The notes beneath the pieces are model-generated. The model did not search any database and was not told the origin of the DNA. It worked only from the letters and a program-made list of their open reading frames with translations. From a bacterium (GTDB taxonomy: Bacteria; Patescibacteriota; Gracilibacteria; Absconditabacterales; Absconditicoccaceae), in contig JAHFJL010000007.1 in assembly GCA_023245855.1 (NCBI GenBank), positions 1-35,348 of the forward strand: 35,348 bases of DNA, written 5' to 3'. The translations under genes and the position numbers were made by a program. Positions within the stretch are counted from its first letter, which is position 1; each line of letters begins with the position of its first letter. Positions 10,938-26,743 of the stretch are shown piece by piece.

Positions 10938-11022
10938 CTACCTTCCACCCTTCCACCCTTCCACCCTTTCACCTTTCACCTTGTCCCTTGTCCCTTCCAC
11001 CTTTTACCCTTTACCTACCCTA
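10938..11022 (+). repeat. Pyrimidine-rich 7/8-bp tandem repeat tract in the dCMP deaminase leader
   Basis: Degenerate units: CCTTCCAC repeated three times, CCCTTTCAC, then heptads CTTTCAC, CTTGTCC, CTTGTCC, CTTCCAC, CTTTTAC. It occupies almost the whole 5' leader and leaves no purine-rich ribosome binding site before the ATG at 11025. Same CTTNNAC unit as in mltG. Confidence 0.75.
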
Positions 11023-11024
11023 TA

Positions 11025-11516
11025 ATGGCTGAAGAAAAATACATTCGTCCCACACGAGATGAATACTTCATGGAAGTAGCGAGAACAGTAGCCAAAAGAG
11101 CTACCTGCGATAGAGGCAGAAGCGGATGCGTAATAGCAAAAAACAAGCAAATTTTATGTACAGGATATGTAGGATCGCCTCCAGGATTGCCGCATTGCGA
11201 CGAAATCGGTCATCAATTCAAGCAAATGACACATGAAGATGGTAGTGTAACCAATCACTGTGTAAGAACCGTTCATGCCGAACAGAACGCTCTCTGTCAA
11301 GCTGCTAAATTAGGTGTAGCTTTGGATGGAGCAACGTTGTATTGTAAGATGACACCATGCAGAACCTGTGCAATGCTGATTATCAGCAGTGGAATCAGAA
11401 AAGTCATTGCAGACAAAAGATATCATGCAGGAGGAGAATCTGAAGAGATGTTTCGCCAAGTAGGTATAGAACTTAACTATTTTGATGAAACAGTAGAACA
11501 CTATGAAAAACAATAA
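11025..11516 (+). CDS. dCMP deaminase (ComEB-like)
   Basis: Deaminates dCMP to dUMP, feeding dTMP synthesis. 163 residues. Zinc site: HAEQNALCQAA (His and catalytic Glu, near residue 85) and TPCRTCAMLI (Cys ligands, near residue 112). The N-terminus RPTRDEYFMEVARTVAKRA and the insert CVIAKNKQILCTGYVGSP with LPHCDEIGH are typical of the family. No UGA. Preceded by a consensus promoter and a repeat-filled leader without Shine-Dalgarno. Ends at a bidirectional terminator. Confidence 0.93.
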   Translation: MAEEKYIRPTRDEYFMEVARTVAKRATCDRGRSGCVIAKNKQILCTGYVGSPPGLPHCDEIGHQFKQMTHEDGSVTNHCVRTVHAEQNALCQAAKLGVALDGATLYCKMTPCRTCAMLIISSGIRKVIADKRYHAGGESEEMFRQVGIELNYFDETVEHYEKQ

Positions 11517-11577: not shown

Positions 11578-11626
11578 CATTATTCATTATTCATTATTAA
11601 TTATTCATTATTAATTATTAATTAGT
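11578..11626. repeat. AT-rich heptad tandem repeat, seven units
   Basis: CATTATT x3, AATTATT, CATTATT, AATTATT, AATTAGT in exact 7-bp register. The minus-strand surface protein stops (TAA 11618-11620) inside this tract. Confidence 0.85.
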
Positions 11627-14600
11627 ATTTTCCGGAGGTACTTCATTATTTTCTTCTTGTTGATTCATTCTCGCTCTTACAGCAAAGACAATCACAAGGA
11701 CAACAAATACACCGACCAATATTCAAAGGATGATAAGGATTATTTTCCACCATGCAGTTCATCAGGAAGTTGCATTAGAAGATTGAATAGTTGTAGCATT
11801 AGGAACGATTTTGACATTGGCGTTGGGACAAGCATCACTGACGATACCATAGAATGCAAGGATATTACACATATTTGGCATGATAGTTGTTGTCATATCA
11901 AGAGGATCAACTTGATTTGCGCTTACTGTCGCTCATGCGGGAGCAAGATTTTTTGTAATAAGATTTATGATATCCTGGAGCACTTGTTTTCTCTTATCCT
12001 GTTGTGAAATATTAGTTTTTGTATCAGAGACAACAGATTCAAATTCCTTAAACAATCATTCGACATCCACAGAAAGGTTAGTAGGTAAGATGCTAAGGAT
12101 TTCTGCCTTAGCAAGATCATATTGATTGCCTCATGCAGCAGCAGCTACTGAACTATCCGTCAATCTTGTAAAGACATCCTGCAAAAGATTTTTTTGAGTA
12201 TCAGGAAGTTGGATAGCTTTAGCATCATAGAAATTTTTAACAGAAACAACATTTGATTTGGTGTCATTTTCATCAATCAATCCATCTCTCAGACTCACCA
12301 ACAACGTTCTGAAGTCATTGATAGTACCCGTAGTTCCTACCGCAAGAGAACTAATAACATCTTGTATTTCTTTGTATATTGCCGTCATTTCAGGAGTAAG
12401 GTTAGTTTGAAAATCCAGAAATGAAACATTGAAATCTTTGGAAACGAGTGTATTAGCAGGATTAGTATAGTAGATTCTACCAAGTGCTGACTGATATTTC
12501 GGTTCGTATTTTTGGAGATAGAGCTGATTACAATAAAAATCCTTATCATTGTCTTTGACTCCATCACCATCACTATCTACACCAAGATCAGTATCTACAT
12601 AACATTGTCCTCTTGAATTATCGTATTTGATATAATAAAGGATGCTGTTGTTGAGATTTTTGCCGACATAGAAATCGATAGCGCCGCTAGCAAGAGAAAC
12701 GGCAGGTATAGAAAGGATATGGAAATCACCCATATTAGCTGTACCTGTACTCATATTCAAAGTTCGTTTCTTATTTGCCATATTCGCATATTTGTCAGTC
12801 ACATCCATATTGATGAAATATTTTCCATAATCAGGATACGTGAAATCAAATGCATCACCAGAAATTACGATAAATCACGAATTATTTTTGCAGTCCTTGA
12901 GACTGAGACAGATATTTTTATTGGAGATATCTCCAAGACTCACATCCCTGAAGATAGCAAGTTTATCAAAAGTATCAGACAGCAGCATCGGTTTGAGTCC
13001 ATTTTTTACTACGATAGTACCTCAGACACCGATTCATTTATATCCTCTATACAGCACTGCTGCTCTTGGTCTGTATCAGAATTCATTGGGTTCTGTATAG
13101 ATATGAGTGACGCGATCAGATTTAGTTGTAAGATCCCACGTTCAATCTCCATCAAAATCATATTGGATAGTCCTCTCTTGAATAAAATCAGGTCTATCTG
13201 AAATTATTTTTGAAACGACATCAAAGGTCACTTGATCACCGATTTCTACGCTTGCAAGATCAGATTTGAGAGTGACAAGCGGAATATCTGGTCTCGTAAC
13301 ATCAGGCGGAAAGAACACGAGCGGACCATTACCGATGATATCTTGATTGCTTTGGCTGCCATCGTCATTGTCGTACATAGTGACTCCAAACATGAATTCG
13401 CCTGGGACTCTAGGCAACGAAAAGAATGCATAGGGAATATTACCTGGAGTGATTTTAGTTTCAAGCTGTCTTGTCGGATCATCCTTATAATAATAATACC
13501 GTTTGTAGTAGGAGATAAATCAGTCAGGATCAATAGCATTAGTAGCGCTTACTTTGACAATCAAAGGATCAAAAGTGCCATTAAAGATATCTTTGACATT
13601 ATTTTCACTGAATCCTACACCCATTTCATTTCCGTATTGAGGAAAGAAAAGGACAATATTATCAAGTTTTGGCAAAGCATTGACTACCTTAAAATATATC
13701 CTGGATTTAGCGCTTTTTGAGATCGTTGTATCTTCTGCAGTGAGCTCGATAAACGTACATCCTAATTCATTGAATTTGTATTTGAACATATCTTGCTTGA
13801 ATATTTCTCAATTTTGGGGCTGAAAGAAAAACTGCATTCATAATTTTTCGCCTTTGGTATTGACGGACAAAGAAGGATCTACAGTGAAATCAGCATATCT
13901 ATCCATTCTATATGCAGGGATCATAGTACCCGTAGCATCAACATTAGGACATTCATCACTTTGAGTTTGGATATTGGAACTTGCATCAATCACATTAAAA
14001 CCTGCTACCGGATAATCTTTTTCACCGACAAACACATTCTTACTCACTTCATTCATTGCGCCATCAGCTCCGCTCACCTTAAGGACAACGAGATACACAC
14101 CGGCCTTTTTGTAGGTATGAGCTATTTTATCGGTCTGGATAGTTCTCGTATCAGCATCAGCAAAATCCCATTGATAATTTACAATAGGTTGATTGGATTT
14201 TACAACAAAATTCATCGGATTACCCCATGGCGTAGCGATAGGAACAACGAATATTTCAGGTCTCAAAATGGAGAGTACATCGATATCTTTTGATATTTCA
14301 GCAATCTTTCCATAACTATCTCTTACCGTGAGTTTGACCGTATGTTTCCCAACAGCATCAAATTGCACTTTGATCTTTTGATTATTTTTTTCTGTGTTGA
14401 CGATCTTGCTTACTGAAGGATCAGAGAATGTTCGTTCATAATTTAGACTATCATATCCATTTATTACATCAAGATCAAAACTCACAGAAGCATCCAAAAT
14501 AAATTCAGAAGGATTTTTTCGAGCATTGCTTGGTACGATAGTAAACTGAGGAATAGGATCAGTAGATTCAGCATATACAGAGATTGAATCCGTATTGGTC

Positions 14601-18142: not shown

Positions 18143-19324
18143 CTAATTATGTGTAAACTCAAGTATTCCCGCCACCCCTATCATCGCTGCATTATCCATA
18201 GAATAGACTTTTTTCATGGGTCTGAGACAAACCACATTCGTTTGTTTTTTTCACTTTATCTCTAATTTATCATTTATCATTTCTAATTGTTGATTTAAGT
18301 ATTCCCACAATCTATCATTGCAGGATACTCCTCCAGCCAATCATAAAGTTTTTGCATCAAAAGCAATGCCAGCTCTAACAAGCTTTTTCACCATCACTTC
18401 AACAACTGCTTCTTGAAATTCATAGGCAATATCGCAAACTAATTCTTCTGGGAGTTGGGACAAGGTTCATGGAACATGTGTTCAATCCTTGTCACTCATC
18501 CCTTGTCCCTCGTTCCTTAGTTTTTTTAGTAAGGTTGATACCTGAGATTTCATTCACGAAAAACTAAATTCAAAGGCATCCTTGGAGAGAAAGATCCTCT
18601 TGAAATGAAAGTCCTTCAAGTCAAAAGTCTCAAGATTTGTAAAGTCAATTTCTTTTTCTTGACCTTCGACTTTAAGGACTTTATTGGCCTTACGACTAAG
18701 TAATGCTTTTTCAGCGATTCGTTGTCCTCCAGGATAAGGCCCTCACAACATTCTTGCAACCTTATCAAAACACTCACCCGCAGCATCATCCAACGTATAT
18801 CAGATCTTTGCGATTCTGTATCATCAAAAAGAATTTCGTTCCAATCATTCATTATTCATTATTCATCATTCATTATCGGTAACGATATAAATGTCGTTGT
18901 GTCCTCCACTCGCGGTCAAAACAACAAACGGAAATTTGATTTCAGAAGGATTTCTTTCAAGGAGAAGCGAGAATAAGTGACCATAGATATGATTCACATA
19001 TACCAAAGGTTTAGCAAAATAACTAGAAAGCAATGAAGCAACCGCCTTCCCAACCACCAACGAACCGGGAAGTCCAGGATGAACAGTAACGCTGATAAAA
19101 TCTACATCTTTGATCTTTTCTAAACCGATATTTTTGATGACTTCAATGATTTTTTCTGAATGAAGCCTAGAAGCTATTTCAGGAACCACACCTCAATATT
19201 TTTGATGATCTTGGATTTGAGAATATGCCAGTAACGAATCAACAGAAAAAATCTGGCCATCCCAAGACACTATGCCCAAAGAAGTATCATCACAACTAGT
19301 TTCTATAGCTAACGTTTTTAACAT
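18143..19324 (-). CDS. tsaD: tRNA N6-adenosine threonylcarbamoyltransferase, with three repeat insertions
   Basis: Transfers threonylcarbamoyl to A37 of ANN-decoding tRNAs. 393 residues against a usual 335-345. Motifs: LAIETSCDDTSLGI (N-terminus), VHPGLPGSLVVG, metal-binding HIYGH, VVLTASGGHNDIY, IGYTLDDAAGECFDKVARML, FSFSGMKSQ, and C-terminal MDNAAMIGVAG. Several Gly are UGA. The surplus length falls in three places that coincide with 7-bp repeat tracts (residues about 148-160, 270-289, 343-357), which the frame crosses without a stop. Divergent from the 19421 gene. Read with the standard code it looks broken; it is not. Confidence 0.9.
18255..18296. repeat. Heptad repeat tract inside tsaD (C-terminal)
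   Basis: Units TTTATCT, CTAATTT, ATCATTT, ATCATTT, CTAATTG, TTGATTT in 7-bp register. On the coding strand it gives the Lys/Glu/Asn-rich LEMINDKLEIK between YLNQQ and the conserved C-terminus. Confidence 0.7.
18457..18516. repeat. Heptad repeat tract and inverted repeat inside tsaD (middle)
   Basis: TCAATCC, TTGTCAC, TCATCCC, TTGTCCC, TCGTTCC in 7-bp register (18482-18516). GGGACAAGG (18457-18465) is the reverse complement of CCTTGTCCC (18501-18509). It codes NEGQGMSDKDWTHVPG, absent from usual TsaD. Confidence 0.7.
18845..18879. repeat. Heptad repeat tract inside tsaD (N-terminal half)
   Basis: TCATTCA, TTATTCA, TTATTCA, TCATTCA, TTATCGG in 7-bp register. It codes DNEGGIMNNEGLE between the conserved IYIVT and YRIAKIGYTLDDAAGE; UGA must be Gly for the frame to stay open here. 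Confidence 0.75.
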
Positions 19325-23223: not shown

Positions 23224-23258
23224 ATTAATAATGAATGATGAAAGATGAATGATTTTGG
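23224..23258. repeat. Heptad repeat tract (ATGAATG type)
   Basis: ATTAATA, ATGAATG, ATGAAAG, ATGAATG, ATTTTGG in 7-bp register, just upstream of the flippase gene start. Confidence 0.7.
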
Positions 23259-23273
23259 ATTTTTTATATTTTT

Positions 23274-23310
23274 GCTTTCTGCTTTAAGCTTTAGGCTTTA
23301 AGCTTTCTGC
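23274..23310. repeat. Heptad repeat tract (GCTTTNN type)
   Basis: GCTTTCT, GCTTTAA, GCTTTAG, GCTTTAA, GCTTTCT, GC: five exact-register heptads, directly after the stop of the 23316-23774 gene. Confidence 0.85.
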
Positions 23311-25735: not shown

Positions 25736-26743
25736 ATGAACCACCCAAAGAAAAAAATAAAATTAGGAAGATACATCTTACTGCTCCTCATAATCCGAAT
25801 AATATATCTTTTTATGAAAAATATTTCGCTTAACGAAAAAATCACTATCAACTCGTGAGAAGGCGCAGGAAAAATCCTGAACCAATTGGGGATGATTGAA
25901 AGATTTCGCGTAAAGGTATACATCAAAAACAACAACGTGGATTTATCCAAACTTGAACCGGGAGATTACGGATTTAGCGGGAGCTACACCAGAGCGACAT
26001 TCGTCAAAAAAATATTGAAATGACCCGACAAAACCTATATCCGTCCAACATTGCTTGAAGGACGATCCATGTACGACATCGATGCCGCATTAGCAAGAAA
26101 ATGATATATCACCGGTGGCGACTACATCGCATTTGTAAGCAATCCGACAATCATCGCTAAATATCAAAAAAAATATCCCTTCCTTTCACCTTCTACCTTG
26201 CACCTTGTACCTTCTACCTTAGAAGGTTTTCTGTATCCCGATACCTATCAAGTGGATGTCAAAAAAAATATTATCGACCAACTCGTATATCTGCAATTAG
26301 AAGCATTCAATAGCAGAGTGCGAAGCAAAGTCAGTTCTCCAGCCAACTGGTACACTACCATCATATTAGCGAGTATCGTAGAAAAAGAGGAAAGGAACAA
26401 CGACAACAGACCGACCGTCGCAGGGATATTTCTCAAAAGATTAGATATATGAATGGCTTTGGGTGCGGATATCACTTTATGTTACGGATTGAAAACGACA
26501 TACATCGACTGCACTCCTGCGTTTATAGGAAGAAATATAGATGACAAAAACAATCCATATAATACGAGGACAGTAAGATGATTACCACCGACACCGATTT
26601 GCAGTCCGACATGGGAAAGCATCAACGCAGCCTTGAATCCACAAAGCTCTGATTATCTCTATTATTTGCATGATATGCAGGGGAATATCCATTACGGAAC
26701 AACGCTTGAAGAGCATAACGCAAACAAAGCGAAATATCTATAA
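25736..26743 (+). CDS. mltG: Endolytic murein transglycosylase, with a heptad-repeat insertion
   Basis: Cuts nascent peptidoglycan strands at the membrane. 335 residues. One N-terminal membrane helix (YILLLLIIRIIYLF), a LysM-like region, then the YceG core: LEGFLYPDTYQVD, catalytic-Glu motif ILASIVEKEE, ALGADITLCYG, NPYNTRTV-RGLPPTPI, and C-terminal HYGTTLEEHN. UGA codes Gly at five places, including the conserved GLPP. Before LEGFLYPDT an extra FLSPSTLHLVPST (about residues 149-162) is coded by 7-bp repeats. Its end overlaps the convergent integrase gene by six bases. Confidence 0.92.
26183..26224. repeat. Heptad repeat tract inside mltG
   Basis: CTTTCAC, CTTCTAC, CTTGCAC, CTTGTAC, CTTCTAC, CTTAGAA in exact 7-bp register (CTTNNAC), same unit as in the dCMP deaminase leader. 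Confidence 0.8.

Follow-up and report, generated by a model that had tools for sequence, protein, structure and literature searches.

In-frame heptanucleotide arrays in tsaD and other essential genes of a bacterial genus that reads UGA as glycine

In many prokaryotes, long simple repeats are most often built of heptanucleotides, and polymerase-footprint slippage was proposed as their origin (Mrazek 2007, as reported in PMC4679880). Coding DNA contains fewer heptads than expected in Xanthomonas and Nostoc (PMC4692102), and arrays of TAACTGA are mainly intergenic (PMC4679880). The palindromic elements of Rickettsia are described as repeat DNA lying in frame within metabolic genes (PMC10969869, citing Ogata 2000 and 2002). 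Within the Gracilibacteria, a closed genome was reported to contain a gene with hypervariable 9-mer PTD repeats (PMC6851277). The DNA analysed here, referred to as the window, is a stretch of 35,348 nucleotides from a member of the Absconditicoccaceae (Gracilibacteria; assembly GCA_023245855.1, contig JAHFJL010000007.1). Its tsaD gene contains heptanucleotide arrays in frame, and arrays of the same period are spread over the genome (G000) and the genus (G000 to G008).

The tsaD gene and its expanded loops

The tsaD gene is present as a single copy and has 13 in-frame TGA codons. Its reading frame is open under translation table 25 only, as the initial annotation had stated. The product matched the Pfam TsaD profile with 187.7 bits (cut-off 24.8) and TIGR00329 with 232 (cut-off 207.8), while it stayed below the cut-off of TIGR03723 (267.8 against 296.1, E 1.2e-79). 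With 393 aa it exceeds the centre of the sorted lengths of 78 other bacterial TsaDs (~342 aa) by ~50 aa, in agreement with the surplus that had been claimed. The invariant residues, namely HxxxH (H112, H116), SGGH and D377, were intact in a comparison with 35 relatives. Concerning the partner proteins, TsaB was matched only weakly in G000 (22.4 bits) and is weakly detected and diverged throughout the family. A profile search of G000, which is 90.6% complete, gave no match to TsaE. As TsaE is present in six out of eight same-genus genomes, this gap is probably due to genome incompleteness. No match to TsaD was obtained in viral contigs, and a scan of named genomes returned distant relatives as well as one family member (L191).

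The surplus sits in four loops. Compared with the medians of the 78 bacterial TsaDs, loop 1 (residues 145-171) has 27 instead of 10 aa, loop 1b (residues 199-244) 46 instead of 22 aa, loop 2 (residues 266-297) 32 instead of 14 aa and loop 3 (residues 340-370) 31 instead of 18 aa. The three loops named in the initial annotation were thus recovered, but its count fell short by one, and the expansion it had missed, loop 1b, is the largest. Its assignment of a heptad tract to each insert applied to loops 1 and 3, which carry clear arrays, and less well to loop 2, where the tract is degenerate and, taken alone, remained below the period-7 score threshold. A tandem-repeat finder marked this tract at 18482-18518, inside the GGGACAAGG...CCTTGTCCC hairpin. 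Loop 1b contains a palindrome with a long paired stem, and its DNA fold (z -3.2) was equalled by none of 200 shuffles. The arrays of loops 1 and 3 showed no folding advantage over shuffles (z 0.39 and 0.23, respectively). The coordinates of all features are compiled in Table 1.

Table 1. Repeat features and their host genes in the window (positions of the whole stretch).
Feature	Position	Strand	Remarks
tsaD coding sequence	18143..19324	minus	393 aa, 13 UGA=Gly codons
tsaD loop-1 heptad array (AATGAAT)n, ATAATGAATGATGAATAATGAATAATGAATGAT	18844..18876	minus	residues 150-160; pLDDT 68 at 151-160
tsaD loop-1b in-frame palindrome, AAAGTC-type units	18608..18682	minus	within expanded residues 199-244
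tsaD loop-2 degenerate heptad tract (AGGGACA-like) with hairpin arms GGGACAAGG / CCTTGTCCC	18457..18518	minus	z -2.7
tsaD loop-3 heptad array (AAATGAT)n, AATTAGAAATGATAAATGATAAAT	18265..18288	minus	residues 346-353
mltG (YceG family) coding sequence	25736..26743	plus	Pfam YceG 197.9 bits; in-frame heptad array
Heptad array (ACCTTNN)n inside mltG	26182..26220	plus	
Heptad array (CCTTTCA/CCTTGTC...)n	10965..11015		just upstream of deaminase-like ORF at 11025
Heptad array (CATTATT)n	11578..11630		end of, or past, ORF starting 15910
Heptad arrays (TGATGAA)n then (GCTTTNN)n	23224..23306		mostly upstream of ORF starting 23216

Markov shuffles of tsaD that kept its dinucleotide content gave one array of this strength in 0.25% of cases and two in 0 of 2000. 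With codon shuffles, one such array was obtained in 2 of 2000. When the gene was scanned at the other periods from 4 to 13, no array was found, and the one detected at period 14 is the harmonic of 7. A chance origin of the repeats was rejected on the basis of these shuffles.

A structure was predicted with AlphaFold2 on a 35-sequence alignment and reached a mean pLDDT of 88 and a pTM of 0.87. The core was confident and low confidence was confined to the inserts, with values of 68 for residues 151-160, 72, 47 and 61 over residues 211-240, and 66 and 53 over residues 271-290. The top Foldseek matches of the model were solved TsaDs (TM 0.81-0.83 by target). Given the low pLDDT at these positions, the matches to the TsaD fold and the invariant residues, it is most likely that the enzyme is intact and that its inserts form disordered loops. 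The inserts are presumably translated, and the enzyme would be expected to work normally despite them. Mapping the inserts onto the predicted structure, as had been proposed, placed them in low-confidence loops around a confident core. The view that genuine repeats are inserted into a core enzyme of functional appearance was thus supported.

The TsaD sequence was aligned with relatives from the same genus, family and class (~40 TsaDs), and most genera of the family had short loops at the insert positions. Within the genus, loop 1 carries (AATGAAT)n in G000, (AATGCAG)n in G005, (AATTCAG)n in G008, (CTTGAAG)n in G002 and a GGGATGA-type unit in G007, while G001 and G003 have no array there. The loop-1 arrays of G000, G005 and G008 are of equal length and share the same register. 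Loops 2 and 3 are common to G000 and G007, with an AAATGAT unit in loop 3 of both, which fits the prediction of in-place evolution; these two genomes were grouped in a tree of TsaD and MltG, a grouping without a support value of its own. A conserved, non-repeat extension in all relatives, which would have refuted the initial annotation, was rejected as source of the surplus since the relatives differ: they have either no inserts or other repeats. In other genera of the family (L005, L007, L018 and L028), loop 1 holds in-frame palindromic or REP-like sequence, e.g. CCCCCTAATAAGGGGG or GATTCCTGCCTTCGCAGGAATGAC (L018, L028). Loop 1b of tsaD in another genus (L005:1880-2010, G010) contains an array of AAAGTCG heptads and, after it, one of GACCTTN in inverted orientation, an arrangement related to the palindrome in the window.

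Heptad arrays in the genome and the genus

In 767 kb surveyed of the 1.11 Mb of G000, 134 arrays of period 7 were counted, compared to 1-19 for each other period between 4 and 12. For G008, 70 period-7 arrays were found in 489 kb. Shuffled sequence contained no period-7 arrays. Per 100 kb, the genus showed 17.5 (G000), 3.7 (G001), 12.5 (G002), 23.5 (G003), 40 (G004), 15 (G006), 4.8 (G007) and 14.3 (G008) arrays. G005 had none, in 23 kb only, and its two tsaD tracts lie just below the threshold. Values for other genera of the family were between 0 and 2.5, and class-level outgroups had no arrays in 80 kb. The heptad burst is thus largely confined to the genus. Two contigs (L053:1-127 and L082:1-120) start within a nearly perfect AACTAAT array of ~120 bp, and for this reason long arrays probably break the assembly.

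The tolerance of repeat inserts by a core enzyme had initially been regarded as unusual; it turned out not to be peculiar to TsaD. Among the proteins that could be named, arrays were located in frame in LeuS (3), PheT (3), ThrS, MnmA (2), PrmC (4), SufC, Nth, RlmL-like, ComEC-like and CsaB-like proteins as well as in TsaD and MltG. In the sampled part of G000, 38 arrays are internal to ORFs of at least 150 aa. ORFs of at least 110 aa cover ~90% of the bases and contain 41 out of 89 arrays, so that arrays are depleted in coding DNA yet frequent there. Array frames stay open in 55% of cases under table 25, compared to 46% under table 11, and 9 of the 38 internal arrays of G000 contain an in-frame TGA.

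Orthologous genes of G000 and G008 were compared in 157 reciprocal best pairs. Arrays of both species are co-located in tsaD, mltG, prmC (two sites), nth and the csaB-like gene. Six out of 13 internal G000 arrays coincided with an array in G008, against 0.04 expected under random placement with a null that is uniform over residues, and because of this uniformity, part of the excess must come from insert-tolerant loops. The coincidence of sites would point to hot spots or common descent, either one. At several shared sites the units differ. The array site of mltG is occupied by ACCTTNN in G000, GAATTAT in G008 and AACACTT in G003, and has no array elsewhere in the genus. In prmC, GAACAAG corresponds to GAACAGT in a shared register, and in the csaB-like gene AATAATG and AACATTC occupy a common site. 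In leuS, AATGAAN arrays are present at residue 315 in four genomes (G000, G005, G007 and G008), and differing heptads were found near residue 870 in three species. At residue 658, a GAGGGAC heptad tract of G000 lies exactly at the position of an additional segment of ~110 aa in G006 and G007. By its appearance, this segment in the leuS genes L272 (G007) and L273 (G006) may be ASCH-like.

The arrays draw on a restricted set of units. Under a null of heptamers drawn from the genome without slippage bias, 15 pairs of arrays with the same unit would be expected in G000 and 4 in G008; the observed numbers were 229 and 129, respectively. The two genomes had 13 unit classes in common, where 3.5 would be expected. 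In the GCTTTNN and ACCTTNN families, five positions are fixed and two are hypervariable. GCTTTNN arrays are located at many loci, among them 23269-23306 in the window, L055:4112-4168, L062:5470-5557 (C15) and L144:12569-12632 (C49). A phase test for hypervariable positions gave p<0.05 for 18 of 99 arrays; since duplication history is not part of its null, this result is suggestive only. Within 100 bp of the array, a reverse-complement partner was found for 10% and 23% of arrays in the two species, compared to 2-2.5% at random sites.

Origin of the arrays

We consider it probable, though by no means settled, that the inserts are heptanucleotide simple-sequence DNA which is made and rewritten by slippage or recombination and is passively tolerated in surface loops, with UGA as glycine opening extra frames. 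The extra segments of TsaD would then be heptanucleotide arrays that entered the gene in frame. Growth, shrinkage and rewriting of the arrays would most likely be brought about by replication slippage together with recombination among arrays that draw on the same set of units. Within genes, the survivors would be those arrays that are free of TAA and TAG, leave the frame intact and are placed in flexible surface loops, and the reading of UGA as glycine would leave a larger share of frames open. We infer both this mechanism and the neutrality of the loops. With slippage alone, starting from random seeds, a restricted vocabulary would not be expected, and unrelated units at one site, as in mltG, are not accounted for either. 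The fixed core of five nucleotides with two hypervariable positions is likewise unexpected under uniform mutation, which is suggestive given that the null ignores duplication history, and the palindrome of loop 1b, which is not a plain tandem array, fits the slippage account poorly.

As the vocabulary is restricted and one site can hold unrelated units, there is room for array-to-array copying, mobile elements or an unknown generator. It is conceivable, but rather doubtful, that an active generator, working by templated or error-prone synthesis or by conversion between arrays, deposits DNA of 7-bp period and restricted vocabulary at fixed permissive positions, among them loops of essential genes, and changes it in register from species to species. 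In that case the burst would be confined mainly to one genus whose UGA=Gly code eases the invasion of coding sequence. We regard it as unlikely that selfish mobile elements, palindromic or heptad in nature and resembling those of Rickettsia, make up the inserts after being copied whole into permissive loops, with the heptads as their building blocks or remains. The unit vocabulary common to dispersed loci and species is consistent with such elements, as are the palindromic loops 1b and 2 of tsaD, the nearby reverse complements, the palindromic or REP-like inserts in loop 1 of other family genera (L018, L028) and the whole ~110-aa segment at the heptad site of leuS. The two clearest tsaD arrays, however, fold like shuffles, and no common element was noticed across the aligned sites, nor any terminal repeats or duplicated target sites. 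Moreover, orthologous units can match in register and length and differ at two to three positions (AATNNNG, GAACANN), which suggests rewriting in place.

Selection for a function of the inserts, e.g. in regulation, protein binding or phase-variable length switching, appears quite improbable. Their persistence between species in loops 2 and 3 of tsaD and at residue 315 of leuS would agree with it, and heptads of other organisms are candidates for regulatory elements (PMC4679880, PMC4692102), but the presence of arrays in the genus is patchy, the encoded peptide is wholly different between species at one site, many unrelated genes are affected and the AlphaFold2 confidence is low in the inserts. 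An assembly artefact or a decaying pseudogene is highly improbable. The genomes are drafts, and the contigs that start inside the AACTAAT array indicate that arrays disturb assembly; still, such inserts recur at the same sites in several separate genomes, and the artefact was rejected on this ground. A pseudogene was rejected given that tsaD is a single copy, in frame and intact at the residues invariant across 35 relatives.

Comparison with described repeat systems

A literature search of open-licence papers found no earlier description of essential genes with heptads in frame and turnover of the unit. Essential enzymes, namely TsaD and several tRNA synthetases, are shown here to carry simple-sequence DNA in frame, and the genus offers a natural system in which site and period persist while the repeat unit changes. 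With it, two questions become testable: why the long simple repeats of prokaryotes favour a period of 7 bp, and whether genes are more readily invaded by repeats once a stop codon has been reassigned. In such lineages, core genes can escape gene callers and family cut-offs, as illustrated by the TIGR03723 score of this TsaD.

Solved TsaD, Kae1 and Qri7 structures (8ifx, 4ydu, 6n9a) have the fold, the HxxxH site and all conserved motifs in common with the TsaD of the window, which differs by its four expanded loops and by its score below the TIGR03723 cut-off. The arrays resemble the heptad repeats known from other prokaryotes (Mrazek 2007 via PMC4679880; Xanthomonas, Nostoc, Calothrix and Beggiatoaceae, PMC4692102, PMC4679880) in their 7-bp unit, short arrays of few copies, genome-wide dispersal and patchy phylogeny. 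As described in these sources, those systems comprise one or few units per genome and are mostly intergenic or at gene ends, whereas tens of units, many arrays in essential genes and replacement of the unit at orthologous sites were observed here.

With the palindromic elements of Rickettsia, as portrayed in PMC10969869, the arrays share the in-frame position in unrelated essential genes of bacteria with small genomes, and loops 1b and 2 are palindromic as well. They differ in that no family of ~150 bp was noticed in the array listing, for which only 7-bp units were compared genome-wide, that most arrays are plain heptads without a hairpin and that different sequences occupy a common site. The 9-mer PTD gene (PMC6851277) is similar in being a case of repeat hypervariability in a Gracilibacteria group with the UGA=Gly code. 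It is, however, one surface-protein gene with a 9-bp unit and synonymous variation, while the repeats described here are heptads in housekeeping genes.
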